Shown in pieces: positions 30,301 through 49,881 of a DNA stretch of 64,000 nt. The notes beneath the pieces are model-generated. The model had not been told where the DNA came from. It made no database searches and saw only the letters and a program-made list of their open reading frames with translations. The stretch covers positions 53,895,885 to 53,959,884 of the forward strand of contig CAIIXF020000001.1 of assembly GCA_903813345.2 (NCBI GenBank), in the 5' to 3' direction. This DNA is from Owenia fusiformis. Taxonomy: Eukaryota > Annelida > Polychaeta > Sabellida > Oweniidae. Both the position numbers and the translations under genes were made by a program. The number at the start of each line of letters is the position of its first letter. Position 1 is the stretch's first letter.

Positions 30301-33300
30301 ATTAGTTATTTGTTGCCAAATATAACAATACAGCACAAGATAATGCAACAGTTCGAGCAAAGGAATTTGATCCTTTTTCTGAAAGTTTTTAATTGGTAAT
30401 AAATGGAAAGCTTCACATAACACATAGAGCTAAAAATGCAGGAAATGTGAAAAATCGAAACAAAATGTCCTTTAGGATTAGTAAATTAGTTTTTCTTTTA
30501 ATTCAGGGAGAATCAAAGCCATGCAGTTGGAATACTCTGAAGCACATAAAAATCTCCTCCAAGCAATAAGAAAGGCTCCTCAACATACTGCAGTAGGATT
30601 CAAACAAACAGTAAGTCACTCATACTTAATTGTCATCATATTTAATGACCAGAGATGTTTATAAAGTATTTGATGTGACATTGGCGATGTTTCACTACCC
30701 TGCAGACAATTTTAGTTTTTATTCAAAAATTGCAGATGAAACTCTCTTGAAAGAACCAAAAATCAAACTATTGGAAGGAACCATGAAATACATTTTTATT
30801 GCAAAATAATTGAATGTTTTTTAATGACTTTTTTCAGGTCCAAAAATTAGCCATTACAGTAGAACTTTTACTCGGAGATATTCCAGACAGATCTATATTT
30901 CGACAGACATCCATGAGGAAAACTTTAGCTCCATATTTTCAACTAACACAAGGTAATTGAATTAATTGTGCATTTACATAAGATATGCAAAGTGCACTCA
31001 TGTACTACGGAAAAAGACTAGTTTGGAAATATATCTTGTTAAATGTTAATTTACGCATACGCTTTACATGTGTTGAACTTCTTTCTTTGACACTTCTACC
31101 TCCTACTAAAGGATATGATCTTCAGTTTTCTTTCCACACATATTCTCAAAAATACTTGACTGTAATGATCAAAATAAAGTTGTTATATTTTGATGAGACT
31201 AAATTGGAGAAATATCAATAATTCAGTTCAATAAATAACAAGAGAATACGCTAAATTATAATCCACTGGTATTTATTGATGATGCTAATAATCACAATAT
31301 ATTTACAGCCGTGAGGAAAGGTAGTTTATCAGACTTCAGTAAAGTACTAGAAAATTATGGTGAGAAATTTGCCCAAGAGGACACCTATACATTAATCATC
31401 AGACTACGACACAATGTCATCAAGACGGGTGTAAGGATGATCAACTTGTCGTATTCTCGAATATCTCTGAGTGACATTGCACAGAAGTTGATGCTTGACA
31501 GTCCAGAGGATGCCGAATTTATTGTAGCTAAGGTATTGAAAATGTACTAGTAGAGGAGATTTGTTAGAGGATGATATTATGTTTGAGGATTTAAGCACAG
31601 GACTCAATGAATTGATGATTTTCGATCACTGGATGGATTCTATCTCGCAGTGACATCACAATTAGGCCACATTGCTATACCTGTTTGATTTTGAGAGATT
31701 ATCTTCTGTATTTCATACTTTATTGATTTATTTTTCACAAAAGTGTTTGATTTGACTAGATAATCATTCATTCTAAGCACATGCCAAGTCTAAGACCTTA
31801 CTGACATGATTTAGATAGCTGTTAAGCGGAATTTGATATAGTGAATTTTTTACTAAATCATGAATTATGTTTTGTAGGCCATTAGAGATGGTGTAATAGA
31901 GGCTGTGATCAACCATGAAGAGGGCTATGTGCAGTCCAAAGAGAACATTGATATATACAGCACAAGGGAACCTATGTCAGCCTTACATCAGAGAATCAGA
32001 TTCTGCCTTGACATTCACAATCAATCTGTAAAGGTGAGTTGATAAGCCACACCAAATCCAAAAACTGAACCTGCTCCAAAATGAAAAAGATCTTTATTAT
32101 GGAAACACTTTCGGCACCCCACTATAATGGGAATAACAAAGAAGGAAAATACCTTATGCCTTAATCCTAAGGTAAAAATATATATTTCACACATAGTTTA
32201 ACACTCTTGAATTTGACTGCAATGGTTGCCATATCTGTATATGAAATATTGTATTGTATTGTATCTCAGTGGAAGGATACTTTCCATGATTGCTAGGGAT
32301 TGGGACTTAATTTCCACTGGGTTGGACTGACTTTTCACATCAGCTCTTATCAGGAATTCATTTCTATACAAAAATTATGATACTATTTCTTCTTTTCAGG
32401 CAATGAGGTTCCCTCCCAAATCCTATAACAAAGATCTGGAATCAGCAGAGGTAAGTGTTTCTTTATATTAGAATAGAACAAGACTACAAGGAGGGGGCTC
32501 TGGGTCTTCTTCTAGAATATGTGTAAATTATGAATCATATCCAGCTATTGTGGTGGTAAACAAAAGATTCAAAGATGGTCTTGCACGGCACTTAATTCTT
32601 CATATAATTTCTCATGTTTCATAAATGAGGTACAAAATGTCATTTCTTAACTGAAAAATGCAGAAAATTTTTTAGTTCTTTTATTTTTAGAAAGCAAGTA
32701 GCTCAAGGTCTTGTGAAAGATTTGATTCTCTAATAAAGTTTTGGTAACAGGGCTGCATGGTAGTGATTTGGTAATTGACTAATTGTGTACACAGAGAACT
32801 TTGTGCCATATTTTAAACAACACTTTATATGCCCTCTAAGATCAAGACCATGCATATTCCCCACTATGTACAACCACATGAATGGGAATATATATATTTG
32901 GTAGGGTGAATTCATGTGAGACCATACTATTATCTCATCATCAGCCTTTCGGGATTAATAAAATATATAAATACAGATATTTAGAACACTCACAAGTAAT
33001 TCAGATTCCAAATTTTTTAAATGTCAATTTTTACAGATACAGTAAATAAATTTGAGATGAGATTCCAATCTCATTCAGGGTTGGTCAGGTAATTAGTAAA
33101 GATTATTCCAAAGAAAATGCTCTTACAATTTAGTAGTAGAAAGAAGTATGAACCAGTATGATGTATGAACCAGTGCACATTTTATATCCATCAGTTTTTT
33201 TAGGGACTTAATAATTAAGAATAATTAGTCCAGTCTGTGGCCTTCAAATGAGATATCTGTCCCATGTTTCAAATGAGATATCTGTCCCATGTTTCAAATG

Positions 33301-36300
33301 AGATATCTGTCCCATGTTTCAAATGTCTTCGCCAACAATCTTTCAATTAAAGATATTTCTCTGTTGCACTATATCCTTACCCTGCTCGCACTCTAGTTAT
33401 GTCACCACCAAAAAGTGGTGACATATTGTTATGGTCTCCGTTTTTTGTGACGGCAGTTGGTGATCGGCAGTTGGCGATCGGCGGTTGGCGTCTGTAACAA
33501 ATTCTTAAAACTTCCAATAACTTAAGAAATACTGTTTAGACTGACTTCAGGTTTTTCAAAATCATCTACTAGTTTCCAGAGGTTCAAATCTGACTTTATA
33601 TACAAGATTTGACCTTGAGGTCTTTTTTCAACTTGCTTCAAATTGACAATTTCTTTTTTCAAAATCATCTATGAGTTATCAGAAGTTCAAATCTGACTTT
33701 AGATTTGAGATTTGACCTTCATTGACCTTCTCAAGGTCAAAAAGGTATTTTTTTCAACTTGCTTCAAACTTAGCAACTTTTTCAAAATCATCTAGAAGTT
33801 CTCAAAAGTTCAAATCTGACTATAGATTTGACCTTCAATGACATTCTCAAGGTCAAAAAAATATTTGACCTCAAGGTCAAAAAGGTATTTTCCAACTTGC
33901 TTCAAATTGACCAATTTTTTTCAAAATCATCTACAAGTTCTCAGAAGTTCAAATCTGTCTTTAGATTGAACTAATAATATTATGAGCAACTAGGTGGTGA
34001 CATTTTGTCATGTCAATGCCTTGATACAAACTATCATCTGCCTAGTAAAGACTATATTTCAGTTTAGCAGCACGGCCCCCATGACTAGTGCATGAGCCAT
34101 GAATCATTTCAAACCTATTGCACTGACCTTTTCTCAACCAATCAGCAAGCTGGAATGAACACTTGCTAAATGCGTGCTCATTAACTCATTAAGCTCATTA
34201 TCACGACAGAAAAATGACCATATTGTATATAGAAAAGTCATCTGTCATCTCTGGATCTTTAAACTGAAGGAGTGAAAAGGTGAATTTGAAGGAATACAAA
34301 GTGAACTATATCCTAATTGTGAAATCTTAAAATCCTAAAACTTCACCATATTTTCTACATACTGAAGTTTACATGTAACTTACATTCAGACTACCATAAA
34401 AGCTATATTTGAGACCATTTGCTGTTTGGATTTTAGGTTTAAAGATGTAACTTCAAGATAGATGTCACCTTCATTTTTTTTATTGAATTTGTAGTCAAAA
34501 GAAAATGTTAATAGATAGAGCTTATTTGCTGACATCAACTTTATAGTGTTTAAACCCTTTCATGAAAGTTAAAAATTAATTCTTGTGAACTTAAAAGGTC
34601 TGGATTTCCAACACTAGCAGACCAGTCTAGCCATCCCCTCCCCTTCCCATTAGTATCTCCTATTAAGTTTACATTTGCCAAAGATCTAATGGACGGACGG
34701 CCCTTTATAATCCACCACACTTGTGTGTCAATATAGATCTGACCTTACGTTTTATTTGAGACACTGAATGACTATTTAGAAGTCATGTCAGAAAGTACCA
34801 AATTGATGATTTTTTATTTTTTTATTTTTGTTTATATATCTGCCAGTGTGGCATGTTGACATCTCATGGGGACATTACTATCCAGACTGTTTGTTTTATT
34901 ATTTGTTTTTACTGGCATACCTCCAGACCTCCACGCATTTCACTAAAGTTCAACTTCATAATATATGCTCTATGTATTATGTAGAACAAAATGCAGTATC
35001 GATTCTAGGGTTGACCCCGCCCCTGCCATAAAAATGCTGTTTATTTATTGAGAAATGCCATATTATACATGTACAAGTATATGTATCCTTTCAAAAATAT
35101 TCAAGGGTGGGAAATATTGAATCCAAATGATGGATTCCTTTTGATATTGGTGCAGCTGTCATCAAAAATGATGCTTTAAAAAGAATTGTGATCAGGAATC
35201 TAGGCAGTATACTTTGACTTTTTGGTTCACCAAAGTAGGACATATGATTGATTGAACTTTTGGTAGTTGATCCTTCCCAGGGTCATTGAACTGTTTTATG
35301 AAAGGTACTGTAACCAATAAAATCCAATGGAGCACTTGGGTCCAGTGGTGCCAGTCAGAAGAGATCAAAAAATTAATAACACGTTATGAAAGGATATAAT
35401 TTTATAACCTAATCCTGGTTGTTTAAAAACATCCTGTTCTACCTTAGTATATCTCTGATTGTGTACTAAATAACCTGGTAGAGGGCAGTATATTTCCACT
35501 GGGTACACTGTCAGAACAGGATTCAAATGTTTTTTTAGTACATAAAGATACCCAGATATTCCATTATCCTATGACATTTCACTGTTAGAATCCTTTATTT
35601 TATTGAAATAGAAACCCAGTCATTTAAAAGATGGCAGTTGTGTTCATTTTGATGATTTCATGAAATAATTGAAATTCATTGAACTTCCCTCTAAACACTC
35701 ACTTCCTATTATACAGGATATTGGTTGTGAAATTCAATGACATGAAAAAAAGTTCAAACATACAGTATAACAAAAATACTTCCTTATCACATGTCACTTA
35801 TATGTGAACATAATAAAATTTTAGTTTCATTTTATTTTACATGTACATGTCAAAAGGACTTGAGATAAACCATAGATATGCTTATAAAGCACTTAAATCA
35901 TGCATATTATGAGTGTATTGGTTATGAGATAACTAATTTGTCCTCCCCACCCTTATTGCACATGGCAATTACCCAGCAGGAACTAGCTGGATGATAATGA
36001 GTTGTGTGCCTTGAATTGTATTCAGCTTGTAGGCTTGGGGAGGCCTACTTATGCATAATTAACATCTCTCCACTGTTGAACATATGCTGTAGGGTTACAC
36101 ATACTGGTCGTTCAGAGTTGAAATAAAAAACACTCCCTATAGCCTAGTAGCATAATTTGGTATTTCTGTATTTTAACTCTTAGGGTTATATCAGGTCCTA
36201 GTAGTCCATTGTTCACTAATTTCCAAAATATGTACGTGTGGAATTTCAGTAGGGAGGAATGGGAAGTATAAGTAATGGTGTGAGATTTGTTTGATTTATT

Positions 36301-39300
36301 TCAGTTCATAAAATAGTCAACTTTTTTTTATAAAAGCTTAACTATGTGGTATGTCTCTGATATGATTTTTCTGCTATGTAAGCTTATTCTAAATTATACC
36401 ATAGTTAAGTTTATCACTTGTTTTAATTAGAACCCACACACCTCAGAATCTAAAGATATAAGCGCATATTCAGAACCAAGCAATATACCGCACCACTGCG
36501 AATCTGACTGTTGTTAAATTAATTTTTTTAATTATTGTTAGGACATTTTGTGAGGGTAGTTCCCAGGGGTCAATCCCCCCTGGGGAAATTTCTTGGCTCT
36601 TAGCTCCAACATCCTCCCTCCCCTGGGGTGACACACAGGCTCTTATTCACACATCCACCCTCCCCCCTTTGCAAATAACCAGACAGCTTCAGCTGTCATA
36701 CCTCTGCAGTCTGCATTGAAGCAAAATTGTGATGTATTGTGTTGGTCCAATTTATCACTATCAATTTCAGTGAAGATATTGAACTACTGGACCTTATCAT
36801 TTGTATCAGATGTGGTAAATAGAGCTGTTCACACCAGATATCTGTATTTTATATTGCATTGTATTAGATGGTTATTATGATATTATATTCACTAAATTAC
36901 CCACTGTGCTGACCTTTTCTCAACCAATCAGTGAGCTGAAAGGAACACATACTAAATGTATCCTTATAAAGTATACGGTGAAATCAGAGGAAATGATTAT
37001 ACAGGGTGTCAAATAAATATGTTCTTCCCCCCTCTAAGCTTTAACATCCTATGTTCTTAGGTACCTCAAAACTAGGCTACATGGAGCAACTCCACAAGAA
37101 GTACCAGATGACTAGCTCAACTTGATGCACTTTTATGCACAAAGTTTCATACTTTTGAATTAAGAGGGGAGAACATGTTCATTTGACACCCTGTATTTTA
37201 TAGAAAGTCATCTGTATTTCGACAACGACTTGGTGTTTCAGAGATTAAAGACAACTGAAATTATTGGGAAGGGTGGCACTGATTATTAATTATTACTCCA
37301 TAATTGTTTTTGGCATGTGAAAAATGCCATATCCAATGTTTTGTGTTCTTTGGTATTACATGGAGAGTTTTGAATGAATTGATATTATTCAAGAAAACTG
37401 AGAACTGTTCTATTCTTACCCTTTGCATTCGTTCAACTTCACTTCTTGAAAGAGAGCTTCGTCATCACTCTTTCAGTTTACAATAAATCTCTGATCTCAC
37501 AGAGCCAATCAGAGTTTGTCGTCCAAATACTGACAACTTTCTAAATGCATAGTTAATGAGCACGTATTTAGCATGCATTCCTTCAACTTCACTGATTGGT
37601 TGAGAAAGGGTCACACTGTGCAAAAAGCCAAATATAGTAGCATATAAGTGGCAAACTATTTGTGAATATAGTTCAGTATGTCCTCACTATATTGTATTCG
37701 GTATGGGAAACAAACTATTCTTGCCTCAGAAGCGGAACATTTAGTATTGGTGGTATATACTCTACGATACTAAATATCGTTTGAACTATTCTCTGATTAT
37801 TCTTAAGAGCCAGGAATAGTAGGATATAAGTACATAGAAAAGATGAGTATAGTATGTATTACGTAATCCAAAAACAAACTATACGCCTCTTATACGCGAG
37901 GCTATATATTCTTTGATGTGCCTTAATTTGCTTGGAGTTAATCCTATTTTATTTTTCAATTAAGCGCTAATGTAAACAAATAAAATCATGCATTTCACTT
38001 AAGAAAGCTTGATCAAACTTATTGTCTGAGATCTCATTTAAAATTTTATGATGTTGAAGTATATGATTTTAAATGAACTTTAAATGAATTTTAAAAATGT
38101 AAGTCAATACAAAAAGTGGAATGAAAAATTTGGGTATATTTCAAATATAAATCAGTAAATTATTTATTCTCCGTTTAGAGTAAAATAACCTTTCAATGTA
38201 AGGATTTAATTTGAACATCATAAAAATGCGCCAAATTGAGCTTTTTACTATATTGATGAAGTTTGAGCACAACACATACTATGTCCAAAATTGAAACATA
38301 CTCTCGTGGGCCAAGTTCAACCTTTCAATGTAAGGATTTACTTTGAACATCATAAATAATGCGCCAAATTGAACTACACTAATGCGCCAAATTGAGCTTT
38401 TTAATATATTGATGAAGTTTGAGCACATCACATACTATGTCCCAAAATCCAAAGTGAAACATACTCGTGTGCCAAGTTTAACCTTTCAATGTAAGGATGT
38501 ACTTTGAACATCATAAATAATGCGCCAAATTGAACTATACTAATGTGCCAAATTGAGCTTTTTAATATATTGATGAACTTACAGCACATCACATACTACA
38601 TCCCAAATTGTAACATACTCATGAGCCAAGTTTAACCTTTCATTGTAAGGATGTACTTTGAACATCATAAATAATGCGCCAAATTGAACTATACTAATGC
38701 GCCAAATTGAACTTTTTAATATACTGATGTACTTGAAGCACATCACATACTACATCCCAAATTGAAACATACTCATGAGCCAAGTTTAACCTTTCATTGT
38801 AAGGATGTACTTTGAACATCATAAATAATGCGCCAAATTGAACTATACTAATGCGCCAAATTGAACTTTTTAATATACTGATGTACTTGGAGCACATCAC
38901 ATACTATGTGCCAAATTGAAACATACTCATGAGCCAAGTTTAACCTTTCAATATAATGATGTACTTTGAACATCATAAATAATGCGCCAAATTGAACTAT
39001 ACTAATGCGCCAAATTGAACTTTTTAATATACTGATGAACTTACAGCACATCACATACTATGTCCCAAATTGAAGCATACTCATGAGCCAAGTTTAACCT
39101 TTCAATGTAAGGATGTACTTTGAACATCATAAATAATGCGCCAAATTGAACTACAATAATGCGCCAAATTGAACTTTTTAATATACTGATGAACTTGGAG
39201 CACATCACATACTATGTCCCATTGAAACATACTCATGAGCCAAGTTTGACCTTTCAATGTAAGGATGTACTTTGAACATCATAAATAACGCGCCAAATTG

Positions 39301-42300
39301 AACTATAATAATGCGCCAAATTGAACTTTTTAATACACTGATGAACTTGGAGCACATCACATAATATGTCCCATTGAAACATACTCATGAGCCAAGTTTA
39401 ACCTTTCAATGTAAGGATGTACTTTGAACATCATAAATAACGCGCCAAATTGAACTATAATAATGCGCCAAATTGAACTTTTTAATATACTGATGAACTT
39501 TGAGCACATCACATACTACATCCCAAATTGTAACATACTCATGAGCCAAGTTTAACCTTTCATTGTAAGGATGTACTTTGAACATCATAAATAATGCGCC
39601 AAATTGAACTATACTAATGCGCCAAATTGAACTTTTTAATATACTGATGTACTTGGAGCACATCACATACTATGTGCCAAATTGAAACATACTCATGAGC
39701 CAAGTTTAACCTTTCAATATAATGATGTACTTTGAACATCATAAATAATGCGCCAAATTGAACTATACTAATGCGCCAAATTGAACTTTTTAATATACTG
39801 ATGAACTTACAGCACATCACATACTATGTCCCAAATTGAAGCATACTCATGAGCCAAGTTTAACCTTTCAATGTAAGGATGTACTTTGAACATCATAAAT
39901 AATGCGCCAAATTGAACTACAATAATGCGCCAAATTGAACTTTTTAATATACTGATGAACTTGGAGCACATCACATACTATGTCCCATTGAAACATACTC
40001 ATGAGCCAAGTTTGACCTTTCAATGTAAGGATGTACTTTGAACATCATAAATAACGCGCCAAATTGAACTATAATAATGCGCCAAATTGAACTTTTTAAT
40101 ACACTGATGAACTTGGAGCACATCACATAATATGTCCCATTGAAACATACTCATGAGCCAAGTTTAACCTTTCAATGTAAGGATGTACTTTGAACATCAT
40201 AAATAACGCGCCAAATTGAACTATAATAATGCGCCAAATTGAACTTTTTAATACACTGATGAACTTGGAGCACATCACATAATATGTCCCATTGAAACAT
40301 ACTCATGAGCCAAGTTTAACCTTTCATTGTAAGGATGTACTTTGAGCATCATGAATAACGGGTCAAATTGAACTATGATAATGCGCCAAATTGAACTTTT
40401 TAATATACTGACGAACTTAGAGCATATAACATACTATGTCTTGAAACATACTCATGAGCCAAGCTTAACCTTACAATATAATGATGTATTTTGAACAAAA
40501 TAAATAACGCGCCAAATTGAACTATACCAATGCGCCAAATTGAACTATTTTTAATATACTGATGAACTAAGAGCATGTCACAGACTATTCCCAAATTGAA
40601 ACATACTCATAAGCCAAGTTTAATCTTTCAATACAAGGATGAACTTTGAACATGATAAATAGCGCGCCAAATTGATCTATACTAATGCGCCAAATTGAAC
40701 TTTTTAAAATACTGATGTACTTGGAGCACATGACATACTATGCCCCAAATTGAAACATACTCATGAGCCAAGTTTAATCTTTCACTGTAAGGATGTACTT
40801 TGAACATCATAAATAATGCGCCAAATTGAACTATACTAATGCGCCAAATTGAACTTTTTAATATACTGATGTACCTGGAGCACATCACATAATATGCCTC
40901 AAATTGAAACATACTCATGAGCCTAATTTAACCTTTCACTGTTTCTTTCAACTTTTGGGTAATAACTGTGGATTAAAGGTGAAGAAAAGTCATTTATTAA
41001 AAATCAAAAAATTAACTTTTCAATGAGTTTATCGATTCATTCCAAATTTTAACACAATATTAATCATAGCAAGAGGGACACTAAAGAATCAAATAAATTA
41101 GAAAGACTTAATTTGCAAATTATTTTTCTGTGGAAATCAGGGCCATCGGCTGTAGATATTAATCCTTTGACTCATAACAAACGGATTAGTTATCAGTGAA
41201 CAAAACTCATGTCATAGAAATTAAATACTTGGGGATTACAGTTTTATTTATATTGCTCTGACATGTCAATACATGTACGAGATGGTGAAAAACTGCATGA
41301 TCTTGAAAGAATTGTTGGCCAAGGGGAGGGGGTCGCTAGGTACGGGCCTGTATAAAATGCGTAATGTATTTAGCTGACTATTGAGCATTTCTGTGTCAAG
41401 ACTGTTTTTATGGCTGACGAAGTGAATACAGGTGGTTGTGCCTGTGTAATATAAGAGGGGGATGGGATGTGACAAAGAAACAATAGAATAAACATGTGAG
41501 GAAAACTTATTAATTAAGAATTAAAAAATTATCTTTCCAATGAATTGATCGATTGAATCCAAATTTAAACACAATGTTAATCATAACATGGGGGATAATA
41601 TACAATCAAATAAATATAAAAAACTTAATTTGCAAATTATTTTTTGTGGAACTTAGAATCGTTGGCTGTAGGAAATTAATCCATTGACTCTAACAAACAG
41701 ATTAGTTATCAGAGTGTTAACGAAACTCATTTCATAGAAATTGAATAATTAGGGATTAAAGTCTTACTTATCATATTGCTCTGACATACCTGTATGTCCA
41801 TACTGTATGTTATTTGCATCAGTTTGTTCTTCCATTCACCAATTTGCTCAAAACATAATCATAAATTTCTCAGATGAAACATTTGCAATAAATGTAAAAT
41901 GCGCCCGTTTCTTTATTTGCATTATTACATTATCGACTAAACATACCGAATCTTGCACCTTTTGTATATGTATATATTGAAACGGAAAACAAAGAATGAT
42001 TAATAAAACCAGCTGTTATAAACAGAAATGGTCCAATTCTAATAGAAACAATTGTATTGCACGGGCTAATCTCTGTTGTTTATCACGGGTGTTTATCTCA
42101 GATATCATATGGATAACAGCAAACACATGAATTGAGAAATGTGAAAGAATGCAAGTTTTAACTTTGTTTTAATATGGCTTAATACTACTTGTATCATTTA
42201 CATAACGCATGTTATTTCCTAATTTATTATAAGTGATTTGTCAGATGAAATCTGAGCAATATTTCTGGTATGTTAAAGGCTCGTAATAAGTTTGAGCTCA

Positions 42301-45300
42301 GGGGGTCAATTTTCAAAACATACCAAGGGGGTCAAAATTGATAATGTTGGCCAAAAATCACTTGACAGTGCGCGGATTGGTGAAAACTGTATGATTTTGA
42401 AAGAATCTTGGCAAGGGGGTGGGGGATTCACATGAACCCAACGACCCTCCCCCATGGCCACAGACCTGTATCAAATGCGTAATGTATTGAGCTGAATATT
42501 TTTGCAATTTTGTGTTATAAACGTTTTGTGTGGTTTGCGAAGTGAATAGTGGTGTTTGTTTGTGTCTGTGTAAGAGAGGGCTTTAAATGTTGTTTGTTGT
42601 ATTAAACTTAATGTTACAGAGAAACAATGGAGTTAAATTGTGAGGAAACCCCATAATTAAAAATCAAGAAATTACTTCCCAATGAGTAAATCAATTGAAT
42701 CCAAATTTTAACACAATGTTAATCATAGCACGAGGTACACTATACAATCAAATAAATATGAAAAACTTAATTTGTATTTTTTGTGGAAATTAGAGCCATA
42801 GGCTGTAGAAATTAATCCATTAACTCTAACAAACAGATTATTTATCAGGGTGATCAAAACTCAATTCATAGAAATTGAATACTTAGGGATTAAAGTTTTA
42901 CTAATTACATTGCTCTGACATGTCAATACATGTATGTGAATGGTGGAAAACTGCATTTCTTGAATTGTGGGTCAGGGGAAGGGGGTCTTTAGGTATAAAA
43001 TGCGTAATATATTAATTGAATATTGAGCAGTTCCGTGTCATGACTGTTTTTGGTTGGCAAAGTGAATAGTACAGGTGGTTGATCGTACCTGTGTAAGAGG
43101 GGGATTTAAATGTTGTTTGTTGTAAACCTGATGTGACAGAGAAACAATAGAGAAAAAATGTGAGGAAAACTCATTAATTAAGAATAAAAAATTAACTTTC
43201 CAATGGATTGATCGATTGAATCCCAAATTTAACACAATCTTAATCATAACTCGAGGGACATTATAAAATCAAATAAATATGTAAAAACTTAATTTGCAAA
43301 TAATTTTTTGAGAAATAAGAACCATCAGCTGTAGAAATTAATCCTAACAAACGGATTAATTAGTGTGAATGAAACTCATTTCATAGGAATGGAATACTTA
43401 GGGATTAACGGCTCAAAAATAAACGCATATAATCCGGTTTTGATTGCAAATGCCAACATATTATTTGCTCCTGACTAGATTATTATTCTATATTATATGG
43501 CATTATATATTGTTCCCTTCAAATAATACATGAATAATATTATTAAAGAAAAATTAATTTTTAAAAATAGTTATTATATCTTATTCCGCTATAATACAGG
43601 AAATAACTGCCTACCATACAGGAAAAAATATTCTCTACGATTCCCTCTTATTGCAACTATATTAAACATTTTATTCTATATTATTTTTACTTCAATACCA
43701 AGTGAATTGAAAATTGTAACTTTCCACAGACTTAATGAAATGAATCCAAAATTTAACACGGTGTTAATTATAATTCGACTGTCATTGTCCAATTTAGTAA
43801 AAGTAAAAAGCTTAATTGATAAATGACTTTTTGATGGAAATTAGAACCCTCAGTTATAGAAATGACCAGATTAATCTGACCAAGCGAATTAATTAGCATT
43901 GAAAACAAAATACATTCAATGCTGGACTTTGCTTTTAATCTGTTAAAACAACAAACTTGGGAACTGAAGCTATTACGTAATATCGCGTATAAGACGCGTA
44001 TAGTTTGTTTTGAGGTAGAATAAGAGAAGAATAAGTCAAGTATAGTTTGATATAGTCTGTTTTTATTTAATATAAGTTGTTTTTCACCGCATATAGTAGA
44101 TATAGTAGATATACACTCTGCAATGATATATGCAACTTATTTTAGTTTATATGGGCGTACCGGAGAGTATATCAGGACTTATATTAAAGTGTTCCGTTTT
44201 TAGGAATATGGGAGAAACTATTCTCGCCCATATTTTAGGTGAAATTCAAACTATATGGGGGTTATTCTAAAAAATAGTTTGCTATAGTACAAACTATATT
44301 TGGCTTTTTTCACAGTGTCAGCTTGGTGGATTTGAAATAATTTATTACCTGGGTTGTCACAGGCACAAATCTTTGGGACGGGGCTGCTAAACTGTAATAT
44401 ATGCTTCCTAGTCAACTCGTACCCAAGACAACTCGTACCCAAGACAACTCGTACCAAAGATTATTTTCAGTATTATGGGTGCATATTAAGGAAAAAATTG
44501 AGTTTGTAGTGCTTTCATGTTATAATGTGAATCAAATAAGCCTCAATAATTTTTTGAATTTAGAAGACAATGGATCAGTAAAGCATTTTTTATTAAATAA
44601 AAGAAGTGCTTGAAGCACTTGTTCTCAACATTATTTTGTCAAACATATATATAAGTAAATATAATTACATCATTAGATCTGACACTTGTTCCAAACACTC
44701 AGAAACAAACAATATTTTGAAAAATGATTATGAATATGTGGAATAAACATATGTCTCTTCACTCGAACATCCTGTGACCAATATAAAATAATAGTCAATA
44801 TAAATTGACATTCAGCTCAAAATGTCACAAAATTAAATAAATTTCAAACTATAAACTATTCTGAACAGTATGTTACAAACATAATATGTATAACTATTCA
44901 CATTCCCAGTCCAATACTTGATTCAAAACAAAACATATACTTGGGTACGAGTTGTCTTGGGTACGACTTGTCTTGGGTACGAGTTGACCAGTTACCGACT
45001 ATATAGTCTATATGAGGCAGAGGGTAGTATATAACTAGACTCTGCGCACAGGGTATTGTATTCTGCATTCTACATTGTAAAAGTGGTTGCACAAAGTAAA
45101 TAAAAGCTTAAAGCTTCCTGATGTTCATTTGTCTTTCATGATGTAACTATGGCAATATATCAGAAGAGAATTTCTTAGTATCTTAGAGAAATGGGCACCT
45201 GGTTGTTGTTTTATTTCGTCTTACCAGTTTTAGGCTACATATTGTACATACTTAAAGACCTAGACACTTCATGTACAAAATAATAAAATCACAAATGACA

Positions 45301-48300: not shown

Positions 48301-49881
48301 TGATAAGAGACCAGAGTATATGGTGAACTGAAAATCTAAGTATTTCCAGGCTGAGTACTAGAGTTCTTATGTTTGGTATCAGACAGATTTAGGCTATTTT
48401 TTCCATATATACTTTACTCCCTGTTCACTTATATCCTCCTTATCATAACTTCTCATAGGTTAGTCACAATCCCTTATGTCTAGTACAAATGACCGTTATG
48501 TCACAACTGACCACAAGTGTTGTAGTCTCCAACTTTTTTGTGGACAGTGCTTGGCTTTCCAAGGTTTGTATTTGGTGGTTGACATCTGTAACAAATGACA
48601 GGCGGTGACATTCTGCATGTTAATGCCTTGTTTAATGTTGATAAAATCTTGATGATTTCAAATGTACTTTATGAACTTCTATTTACAGAAGAAAGTTTTG
48701 AAGACTTTATATTCTGATTGGATATATGTAAGCTCAAAAATTAGATGAACTATTGAACTAAGCAGAGAAAAGATCACATGAAAAAGCTGAAAGAATATGG
48801 CAGTCAGAAGTCAGGCTTTAATTAATGTTTTCATTGTGAAAAGAAATATGTCAGTTTACAATCACAATGGGTTTATTATGTCACCACCACAAGTGATATA
48901 CTGTTATAGTCTCCAACTTTTTTATGGCTGGTGTTCAGCATCTGTAACAAATGGCAGGTGTTGACATTTTGCATGTTAATACCTTGAAATTCAATAAAGT
49001 TATCAAATCCATACTGTGTTTTTCTTTTTGGTTACTTATGTATTATATGTAGACTATATTGTCCTTGTGTAGAAGATGTAGGGTTGTTATAGGGTTGCTG
49101 GGGTCAGCCTAGATTATAGCTTGTATTGTTCTTTAACTGGCAGTCGTTCTACTGCATGCCAGATAACATTATTCACCATACTTGCTCTAGGTCTCTAGTT
49201 CACATGTAAAGTAAAAAAAATTTCAACTAAACATATTTGTGTTCAGATTTGCGGAAATAGGAATTTAACATATACAATTCTACAAGTGATTTGTTCTCTT
49301 TACAGAGGTTGCACGTGACAATATAACATCGGAGGTACATATTATATGTAGTTCATTGAATAATATAATAAGTATAGGGTATAGAGGTCTATTATAATTT
49401 CATACAAATGGTATAACAAGTGAAACAACAATCAAATTATTTGACATTATTATTTTAACATGGCGAAAGTTTGTTTTAAACAACCAGAGAAAATCACCTG
49501 TTGGCTGCTGATGGTATAACATGTGAGTGTGAGGTCCTCTTGAATGTTATACAGTACATACAGCCAAAATCACCTGCTCTCCCCTATACCTAGAGGGCAT
49601 TAAACATGCCAAATGTCTTTCTGTATTTTGTCTTATTGATTAGTTTTCTTATGAAAATTGACCTCACATCAGAAAATAGAAAATGACTCTAGGTTCAAAA
49701 ATTGTAAATATGATTTTTACAAATGAAAATCTAATTATGGTGGGTCAATTGTAAGATAAGTAAATATATCCTATAATAATCTGTAATTCTCTGTGTGTTT
49801 CAGGATCGTCGTGAGAGAGAGCAACAGGAATTAGAAAGTGCAAAGGAAATTGCTGATGAGGATTTTGATGGATTCAATTAG
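27371..49881 (+). CDS. PSMD3: 26S proteasome non-ATPase regulatory subunit 3 (Rpn3)
   Basis: Eleven coding exons: 27371-27488, 27710-27900, 28520-28654, 29090-29226, 29517-29707, 30507-30610, 30838-30952, 31309-31532, 31878-32033, 32400-32450 and 49804-49881. All splice sites are GT/AG and the phases join without a break, giving 499 residues. The order of conserved blocks follows the family: charged N-terminus (DVEMKDEK), [69 protein letters not shown], the PCI domain ([26 protein letters not shown]), then [17 protein letters not shown] and an acidic end. It is a structural lid subunit of the 19S particle that deubiquitinates and feeds substrates; it has no catalytic site of its own. A second in-frame ATG lies at 27383. 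The last intron is 17.4 kb, while the others are under 900 bases. Confidence 0.97.
32255..32370 (+). repeat. SINE-like fragment, second copy
   Basis: 'tgacttttcacatcagctctta' and 'ttccactgggttggactgac' match the fragment at 26030-26150. 'tatctcagtggaaggata' upstream could be a decayed A box. It lies in a PSMD3 intron. Confidence 0.45.
33245..33325. repeat. 25-bp minisatellite, three units
   Basis: Three exact copies of a 25-base unit beginning 'caaatgagatatctgtccca', followed by six bases of a fourth. Very recent by identity. 32451-33244 is otherwise featureless intron. Confidence 0.95.
33398..34010. repeat. GTCACCACC...GGTGACAT dispersed repeat with internal units
   Basis: It begins 'gtcaccaccaaaaagtggtg' and ends 'ggtggtgacattttgtc'. 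Inside are four imperfect units sharing 'ttcaaaatcatctacaagtt' and 'aagttcaaatctgac', with TGACCTTGAGGTC-type palindromes. Shorter relatives occur at 48490-48635 and 48878-48985 in the same intron. Confidence 0.75.
34060..34260. repeat. Intact copy of the repeat that hosts the 6.7-kb element
   Basis: It contains 'agtttagcagcacggcccc', 'tttcaaacctattgcactga' and 'ccttttctcaaccaatcag' in one piece. The first words match the complement of the right flank of the 37614-44317 element, and the last match the complement of its left flank. It therefore shows the site without the insertion. A further related copy starts at about 36895. 34261-36890 is AT-rich intron with no feature I can support. Confidence 0.6.
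37002..37193. mobile_element. 192-bp MITE with CAGGGTGTCAAAT ends (Tc1/mariner-like)
   Basis: The terminal inverted repeats read CAGGGTGTCAAATAAATATG and, complemented, CAGGGTGTCAAATGAACATG. Similarity runs on through 'ttc', then a C-rich or G-rich stretch. TA duplications lie at 37000-37001 and 37194-37195. It interrupts a repeat also present at 34130-34250 and, inverted, at 37500-37610. Confidence 0.85.
38186..40945. repeat. 154-bp satellite array, about 18 monomers
   Basis: Each monomer runs 'cctttcaatgtaaggatgta' ... 'tgaacatcataaataatgcg' ... 'gagcacatcacatactatgt' ... 'catactcatgagccaagttt'. Most monomers hold two copies of 'aatgcgccaaattgaact', about 22 bases apart. A block of five monomers (about 38780-39485) is repeated with almost no change 766 bases downstream (about 39546-40250), a higher-order repeat. 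The edges are more diverged, as usual for arrays kept uniform by unequal exchange. Minus-strand frames of 60-86 codons are by-products. Confidence 0.93.
40975..43905. repeat. Five tandem units of about 525 bp
   Basis: The landmark 'gaatccaaatttaacacaat' with 'gttaatcat' recurs near 41030, 41548, 42688, 43212 and 43740, and 'aaatgcgtaatgtatt' near 41355, 42474 and 42998. Spacing is about 515-530 bases, except 1140 between the second and third, where an extra 600 bp (about 41800-42400) intervenes. Adjacent to the satellite, inside the same 6.7-kb element. Confidence 0.75.
44411..44988. mobile_element. Foldback element with 16-bp repeats in its ends
   Basis: The left end is GTCAACTCGTACCCAAGACA and the right end its complement. 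Each end has about three copies of a 16-base unit (GTACCCAAGACAACTC). The interior is AT-rich and non-coding. It directly follows the 6.7-kb element. Confidence 0.75.
45928..46065. repeat. Short direct repeat
   Basis: 'ccatagagaggcaataaagc' at 45928 returns as 'ccatagagaggcaatatagc' at 46038. The rest of 44989-49803 is AT-rich intron: apart from a 13-base G run near 46974 and the repeats at 48490-48635 and 48878-48985, I see nothing in it. Confidence 0.6.

Follow-up and report, generated by a model that had tools for sequence, protein, structure and literature searches.

The element at 37614-44317 (6,704 bp) in the window, by which we mean the whole 64,000-nt stretch of Owenia fusiformis DNA analysed here, is very probably a copy of a young, non-autonomous family of cut-and-paste DNA transposons carrying a satellite as ordered, block-growing cargo. 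The window element is CACTA-like, and its membership in the CACTA superfamily is unproven. A transposase supplied in trans would bind the ends and move the whole block, the hallmarks of the family being CACTGTG ends, a 3-bp duplication of free sequence and clustered subterminal ATAGTTTG motifs. The interior would be cargo, made up of an array of a 152-154-bp satellite and, behind it, a 3' portion from another CACT-ended element. The array would be carried in order at each transposition, leaving monomers that follow the sister order in most copies, and copy number would shift by gain or loss of multi-monomer blocks (gains are shown in two copies), likely by unequal exchange or repair slippage. 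The window copy would have inserted into a host repeat within the last PSMD3 intron. The features are as follows.

31308-31541 and 31878-32033: further PSMD3/RPN3 exon matches, upstream of the element
32391..32450, + strand: exon match to PSMD3/RPN3 on the upstream side of the element
34053..34186, - strand: paralogous empty site, a host-repeat copy spanning the junction, with TCA present once
37611..37613, no strand: target-site duplication, left copy (TCA)
37614..37638, + strand: left terminal inverted repeat CACTGTGCAAAAAGCCAAATATAGT
37614..38224, + strand: left subterminal region, motif ATAGTTTG/CAAACTAT at element positions 39, 98 and 262
38225..40942, + strand: satellite array, 152-154-bp monomer, 17 full copies
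38851..40228, + strand: recent block duplication within the array
40963..43707, + strand: about five ~525-bp units, matching a second repeat family at ~80%
43684..43704, - strand: relic of the second-family right terminus, CACTTGGTATTGAAGTAAAAA
43708..44317, + strand: right subterminal region, five ATAGTTTG/CAAACTAT copies at most 320 bp from the terminus
44293..44317, - strand: right terminal inverted repeat CACTGTGAAAAAAGCCAAATATAGT
44318..44320, no strand: target-site duplication, right copy (TCA)
49801..49875, + strand: last-exon match to PSMD3/RPN3 on the downstream side (64% over 25 residues, E 4.5e-6)

Boundaries and insertion site of the window copy

The original prediction of a CACTR-ended element with a TCA duplication at this place holds, as the terminal inverted arms of the window copy are 26 nt long with 96% identity and TCA stands on both sides. 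The 25-bp ends of the family read CACTGTG[C/A]AAAAAGCCAAATATAGT (the terminus shared by copies is also written CACTGTGNAAAAAGCC), in which C at position 8 marks left ends and A marks right ends. A weaker likeness of the ends for ~300 bp inward had also been described and was recovered, with a weak left-right alignment across the first ~160 bp (62%) and a second inverted arm pair (29 nt, 97%) ~260-335 bp inward. The ATAGTTTG/CAAACTAT motif occurs eight times in the window copy, in both orientations, against a simulated mean of 0.05, and the most frequent 8-mer in 500 Markov simulations never rose above 6; the motif is absent from the 5.3 kb of interior. The right subterminal region opens with another diverged ~200-bp piece of the 525-bp unit.

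The pre-insertion site is readable, as had been claimed. Once joined, the window flanks align at 72% (144 columns) with 34053-34186 in reverse complement, and the alignment passes straight through the junction with one TCA. Both boundaries are confirmed by other genomic copies. For a left query of 201 bp, in which the element starts at base 15, 39 other genome matches begin at base 9-15, mostly 13-15 (40 of 50 candidates scored), and for a right query of 381 bp, in which the element ends at base 368, 39 others stop at base 368-379, mostly 368-372.

Judged by its exon matches, the window copy lies in the predicted last intron of PSMD3/RPN3, a proteasome gene, and its target inside that intron was a host repeat. 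The downstream match is taken to represent the last exon. Insertion of a mobile, satellite-carrying element would account for the satellite in this intron, in line with what had been proposed for a housekeeping gene.

The family across the genome

A genome search with at most two mismatches over 24 fixed bases returned 85 ends (44 left and 41 right; 76 with no mismatch and nine with one), and the reversed control returned 0. Among them are 32 inverted left-right pairs spanning 4.7-38.6 kb, and an exact 3-bp duplication flanks every one, in 22 different words; this was read from 20 pairs fetched with both ends and, for 12, from the ends alone (one later read fully). None of the 20 pairs tested extends the duplication to 4 bp. 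The paired-end search suggested with the prediction thus yielded further loci with 3-bp duplications, differing satellite copy number and agreeing boundaries; neither outcome named as refuting the prediction arose. Altogether, 21 copies were read fully, 11 paired copies were read at their ends alone, and, of the 21 single ends, only a minority were read at all. A looser search (21-mer, at most one mismatch) gave 87 matches including the 85 ends; one of the others, C8:23560277, is a further family end that was matched at 96% in the left-end search, and C9:29513873 (CATTGTG) was rejected, its 501-bp surroundings matching no read copy. Left ends diverge from the consensus by 1-2% in 19 of 21 copies and by about 5% in two, and right ends by 0-2.6%; because the ends differ so little, the CACTGTG family appears young.

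None of the 21 fully read copies yielded a transposase, and the predicted full-length copy with an EnSpm-type DDE transposase between the same ends did not turn up among them. The longest frames measure 79-135 aa in 20 of these copies; the copy at C12:36.1 Mb has a 360-aa frame with an overlapping antisense frame, within an insert. The 13.1-, 16.6-, 17.4- and 38.6-kb copies, considered as autonomous candidates, are without a long transposase frame, and their extra DNA is read as nested insertions. The 38.6-kb copy, read fully, holds satellite arrays and two inverted arms of 13,348 bp that are 99.985% identical.

The satellite array and the second family

The prediction of a tandemly repeated interior stood in part. 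The repeat described as an 18-mer is a 152-154-bp monomer (TRF gives 17.7 copies at 38225-40942), in which the short motif GCGCCAAATTGAAC occurs twice, 23 bp apart. The ~525-bp units, with self-matches at roughly 517-560-bp multiples, are real but not private to the element: they also occur outside it and derive from a second family, which ends in CACTTGG and has CACTTGGTAAAAAAG as its right terminus. All 21 read copies retain a relic of this terminus, agreeing with it at 17-18 of 21 bases. The second-family right end was present at 9 of the 12 loci examined (two read plus seven of ten sampled). Its left end was found in one copy and in none of the 10 sampled windows, and in the other read locus it would fall outside the piece, so the length and duplication of this family rest on that one copy.

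The satellite is almost confined to the CACTGTG family among the matches listed. A 21-mer word of the satellite has 270 genome sites, and all 100 of those listed face an element end; likewise, 37 of the 39 satellite loci among the matches listed lie at element copies. Arrays in the 21 fully read copies hold 6-21 full monomers. The C456 satellite locus lies at a contig edge.

Monomer order follows that of the closest sister copy beyond all 500 shuffles in 16 of the 21 copies; therefore, the arrays travel mostly as ordered cargo. Among the rest, shuffles reached the observed order 13 times in 500 for C4:10.36, 10 for C10:35.79, seven for C114 and once for C8:18.2, and the copy at C2:7.86 Mb shows no sister order (reached by 189 of 500 shuffles). 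In 21 of 21 copies, monomers are on average no less similar to those of the sister than to the other monomers of their own copy; the two means are equal in C7, and in C2:7.86 they are 0.963 (sister) versus 0.962. In the copy at C10:24.48 Mb, 13 of 14 best monomer matches lie in C3:2.75 Mb, at 98.7-100%. The nearest relative lies in another copy for 217 of 259 monomers, which is not evidence by itself because shuffled labels give even fewer same-copy relatives (17 on average and 33 at most, against 42 observed with ties counted).

The arrays grow mostly by block duplication, with gains shown in two copies. Four consecutive window monomers recur with 100% identity 766 bp downstream, and the sister copy at C4:29.39 Mb shows 88-93% at the 766-bp spacing, without such identity. 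The array at C8:35.5 Mb has a 920-bp period.

Superfamily, rival readings and known systems

CACTA/EnSpm elements are defined by terminal inverted repeats starting with CACTA or CACTG (CACTR), and in plants their 3-bp target-site duplication has no set sequence. A further described feature is closely spaced repeats, direct and inverted, in the subterminal regions (PMC8978399). The family has CACTGTG at both ends (85 ends), 3-bp duplications of free sequence at all 32 pairs (22 words) and eight subterminal motif copies in the window copy, and the genome contains 14 matches to the tnp2-type profile PF02992, most in long open frames, with the domain confirmed in three loci. A true CACTA/EnSpm member moved by such a genome-encoded tnp2 (Transposase_21) protein is accordingly a serious candidate, with a chance we put a little below even. 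Against it, an autonomous tnp2 copy with the same ends is absent from the 21 read copies, and the exact 16-bp end has 82 matches, all among the 85, and occurs at no locus beyond the CACTGTG family. No tnp2 locus could be matched to the CACTGTG ends as a transposase source. The terminus is not CACTG in either of the two families bounded at one terminus: the one with nine equal-scoring matches ends on its right side in CCCCGGCG, and matches to other copies of the other begin at CCTTGTCG. The remaining tnp2 loci yielded no bounded terminus, and an inverted-end search on single loci gave chance-like pairs only. Tandem arrays of the tnp2 element did not match the 152-154-bp satellite. The CCCCGGCG-ended family recalls animal TRC elements, described as CCC-ended with 2-bp duplications (PMC1636069), neither of which characterises the CACTGTG family. 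SmTRC1, of this TRC/EnSpm type, is CACTA-related and has a region with tandem repeats, but it differs in its CCC termini and 2-bp duplication from the window family with CACTG and 3 bp (same source). The Plavaka transposase profile (PF18759) has 0 matches in the genome, and control genomes were silent too.

An origin from Chapaev or Chapaev3, of the same CMC clade, seems unlikely. As generally described, the group has CAC...GTG termini and a duplication of 3 to 4 bp, with which the window family agrees, and Chapaev3 shares both such ends and a 3-bp duplication, but the Chapaev3 elements examined in one study are flanked by TWA (PMC4079192), whereas the window family has no fixed word and TWA in 5 of 32 pairs. 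A Chapaev group with unrestricted 3-bp duplications may be involved.

We regard as rather improbable a broader reading, in which the CACTGTG and CACTTGG families would form an animal CACT-ended cut-and-paste lineage with the array as an obligate working part, kept for synapsis, host-factor recruitment or end shielding, and in which the transposase would belong to a novel CMC branch whose 3-bp duplications are unrestricted. It is suggested by the array never falling below six full monomers in the 21 read copies and by the lack of any pair below 4.7 kb.

That the satellite is an ordinary genomic satellite captured by the transposon, or seeded by it into new places, is more improbable still. An array of ~4.5 kb at C11:868-872.6 kb, whose flanks carry no element end over the ~2.2 kb and ~5.0 kb read, speaks for it, and further arrays could lie outside the assembly. 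This orphan, bordered at one edge by another repeat and breaking off within a monomer at the opposite edge, may be a decayed element copy; the placement of the listed sites and loci at element copies and the sister order of most arrays also oppose this reading, and no other long independent array of the classical satellite kind was found among the matches listed. Movement of the satellite by the element, one part of the earlier suggestion, is borne out by the duplications at all 32 pairs and the arrays of 6-21 full monomers in the 21 copies read, and seeding of free satellites, the other part, is unsupported.

The recombination-signal heptamer is CACAGTG, of which the terminal CACTGTG is the reverse complement, and Transib and RAG-like elements make 5-bp duplications. 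A Transib/RAG-type element, resembled in the heptamer only, is barely credible given duplications of exactly 3 bp here, 0 of 20 extending to 4. Segmental duplication or an assembly artefact is refuted by varied 3-bp duplications at 32 of 32 pairs, differing flanks and the empty site.

The non-autonomous, satellite-carrying DNA transposon, our working type, fits all 21 read copies. It represents a young family without a transposase found in the assembly, and its composite structure takes in part of another CACT-ended family. Satellite carriage by transposons is, in general terms, an established idea; the present family offers a clean case of satellite spread outside large satellite blocks. With an exact footprint at each of 32 paired copies and arrays open to monomer-by-monomer alignment, spread through transposition can be separated from growth at the locus, which is rarely possible for satellites.

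Known systems share parts of this design; among the titles and abstracts listed in one open-access library, none showed an animal CACT-ended satellite carrier. The Cg_HINE elements of the oyster Crassostrea gigas are non-autonomous Helentrons with satellite-like central repeats (PMC7492417). They resemble the window family in being non-autonomous, in the satellite-like array at the centre and in their genome-wide dispersal, but the window element is cut-and-paste with inverted ends and a 3-bp duplication, and some Cg_HINE central repeats are related to a classical oyster satellite (PMC7492417). Tetris, a foldback transposon of Drosophila virilis, is also apparently non-autonomous with internal tandem repeats; its ~220-bp repeats are housed within the terminal inverted repeats and build longer satellite arrays as well (PMC4079207), whereas the array of the window family is central and almost never seen outside the element. 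Jozin, a CACTA element of Chenopodium, likewise carries a satellite array inside, close to its 3' end, but it is a plant element with tnp2 parts, and its satellite either has monomers from a tnp2 fragment or belongs to a family also dispersed along chromosomes (PMC8978399; PMC7320549).

The element, its insertion footprint and its family

The CACTGTG-ended transposon of the window occupies exactly, to the base, the limits first proposed for it (37614 and 44317), with CACTGTG read inward from each end. The predicted 25-bp inverted ends with one mismatch (position 8, C left and A right) and the TCA on both flanks are present. The pre-insertion site is also readable: a copy of the host repeat, the reverse complement of 34053-34186, spans the junction with a single TCA and aligns with the joined element flanks over 144 columns (72%). 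Four exon matches to PSMD3/RPN3 are listed below. On the upstream side, two frames have matches among solved chains of proteasome subunit 3, with E of about 1e-29 and 1e-33. The element lies within the last PSMD3/RPN3 intron as far as the match at 49801-49875 holds.

Features of the window
31308-31541, PSMD3/RPN3 exon match
31878-32033, PSMD3/RPN3 exon match
32391-32450, PSMD3/RPN3 exon match
38225-40942, satellite array, unit 152-154 bp
40963-43707, ~525-bp units
49801-49875, PSMD3/RPN3 exon match (25 residues, 64%, E 4.5e-6)

Immediately right of the element, a 67-nt inverted repeat (87%; 44408-44474 and 44925-44991) containing the 16-bp unit CAACTCGTACCCAAGA is possibly a small foldback element.

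The genome search for paired inverted ends that the original prediction had proposed was productive. Across the 498-Mb genome, 85 sites match the 25-base end pattern (exactly in 76, with one mismatch in nine and with two in none), against none for its reversed control; these sites form 32 inverted left-right pairs, spanning 4.7 to 38.6 kb, and 21 single ends, five of which were looked at. In full, 21 copies were read, including the 38.6-kb one, and 11 pairs at their ends only. As anticipated, a 3-bp duplication flanks the other copies, with the same word on both sides in 32/32 pairs and 4-bp identity in 0 of the 20 pairs tested; 22 different words occur, and TWA, the Chapaev3-type word, in only 5/32. 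Left ends diverge from the consensus by 1-2% in 19 of the 21 read copies and by about 5% in two, and right ends by 0-2.6%; because the ends differ so little, the family is young. In the window copy, the 720 bp of subterminal sequence contain ATAGTTTG eight times (simulated mean 0.05), whereas 5.3 kb of interior lack this motif.

On C12, two left ends of the family point the same way with a spacing of 155 bp (L047; C12:8987933 and 8988088), possibly a truncated copy beside another. The copy at C7:39549111-39587740 (L071-L074) contains two inverted 13,348-bp arms, 99.985% identical, separated by about 1.6 kb, much of it similar to the element's own 525-bp units; the arms either arose by two inverted insertions very recently or are an artefact of the assembly.

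A composite interior and the search for a transposase

The ~525-bp units were found where expected, and are not private to the element. Among 40 scored of 742 candidates, a 341-bp unit probe matches at least 27 sites within element copies (91-100%) and at least 13 loci outside them (84-86%). Of two outside loci read in part, one matches the whole 2.7 kb of units at about 80% and the other is similar on either side of an insert, as far as it was read. In both, the similarity ends at CACTTGGTAAAAAAG, the point where the window element continues. This right terminus recurs with differing flanks in 7 of 10 further sampled loci (20/20 bases), and was not visible within the stretch read in the other three. 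One copy of this second CACT-ended family, 4,030 bp long, also shows a left end that matches, and is flanked by TAT on each side; none of the other loci looked at showed that left end. A relic of the CACTTGGTAAAAAAG terminus persists in 21/21 read element copies (17-18 of 21 bases), followed in the window copy by a further diverged unit piece. The element is composite, because it shares its units with the second family and keeps that family's terminus inside.

The predicted full-length copy, with an EnSpm-type transposase between these ends, was not among the 21 read copies. In 20 of them the longest frames reach only 79-135 aa; the remaining one has a 360-aa frame inside an insert that, by eye only, was read as Tc1/mariner-like. 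The exact 16-base end has 82 genome sites, all in this CACTGTG family and none outside it. Genes of the tnp2 (EnSpm-type transposase) kind give 14 genome matches, with the domain confirmed in three loci. Two of their families could be bounded, each on one side, and have CCCCGGCG and CCTTGTCG there instead of CACTG. The moving protein may be lost, unassembled, encoded in a copy outside those read or associated with diverged ends. The CCCCGGCG-ended tnp2 element (right end; L051, L052; C1:24.24 Mb, C9:16.11 Mb) has nine equal-scoring matches, two of its copies sharing 99.87% identity across 7.77 kb; it bears tandem arrays near both ends, one with a 152-bp unit unrelated to the present satellite on the right and one with a ~31-bp unit on the left.

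The satellite as part of the transposon

The satellite, originally described as an 18-mer, has a measured unit of 152-154 bp, each containing two copies of the short motif GCGCCAAATTGAAC, and it belongs to the transposon. Genome-wide, 270 sites match a 21-base satellite word (control 0); 144 sites fall in the 21 fully read copies, and each of the 100 sites listed, on C1 to C4, has an element end facing it at a distance of at most 17.5 kb. A 771-bp satellite query found at least 39 separate loci (40 of 50 candidates scored), of which 36 face an end found with the 25-base pattern, and one, on C61, faces a right end matched in the right-end search. This leaves C456, which lies at the edge of a contig, and C11:868-872.6 kb. 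The latter was read at its edges and flanks, its middle being known from search matches only, with one stretch unlisted. No element end occurs in the flanks read (about 2.2 and 5.0 kb), and a free array at C11:868080-872630 is possible. The array begins beside a repeat that is also inserted in the C2:23.7-Mb copy, and it ends mid-monomer against unrelated DNA; we take it to be a decayed element copy. With about 4.5 kb of satellite (L077, L078), it is perhaps the longest run seen. In the copy at C2:23695562-23712208, satellite adjoins a ~9.3-kb insert whose inverted arms are ~1.5 kb long, and one arm of this type abuts satellite at C11 (L077:639-2192); such inserts may preferentially target satellite DNA.

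Satellite copy number differs between copies, as predicted, from 6 to 21 full monomers in 21 copies. Mean monomer identity is about 91%, alike within and between copies. The closest relative of 259 monomers lies in another copy for 217, in the same copy for 29 and is tied for 13, a count which alone proves nothing because most monomers sit in other copies; same-copy nearest relatives number 42 with ties (shuffled labels: mean 17, maximum 33). Order was tested by comparing the best matches of each copy with its closest sister copy, against 500 shuffles. Agreement with the sister's order exceeds all 500 shuffles in 16/21 copies and is reached by 1, 7, 10 and 13 shuffles in four more; C2:7.86 Mb shows no such order (189/500 as good). 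At C10:24.48 Mb, 13/14 best matches lie in C3:2.75 Mb at 98.7-100%, the latter array being broken by 11 kb of other DNA. Since best matches follow the sister's order, transposition mostly passes arrays on as blocks with their order kept. Arrays also expand in place: four monomers of the window copy recur 766 bp downstream at 100% identity, the identity at that spacing being 88-93% in its sister (C4:29.39 Mb), which lacks the duplication, and the C8:35.5 Mb array repeats with a period of 920 bp and includes several monomers that are identical. The arrays at C4:10361564-10364123 and C11:4088229-4090788 have equal match scores row by row; one copy may be the donor of the other, or the two may be sisters of very recent origin.

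Relation to known satellite-carrying transposons

Non-autonomous transposons that carry satellites are already known: oyster Helentrons (PMC7492417), the Tetris element (PMC4079207) and CACTA in Chenopodium (PMC8978399). According to PMC12730594, CA...TG ends and 2-5-bp duplications are common to a whole clade of superfamilies, so the ends alone cannot decide the superfamily. The element joins the satellite carriers, with CACTA-like ends and apparently in an animal. The family stands out by how complete its evidence is: each pair bears an insertion footprint, and the satellite could be traced between copies by the order of its monomers.
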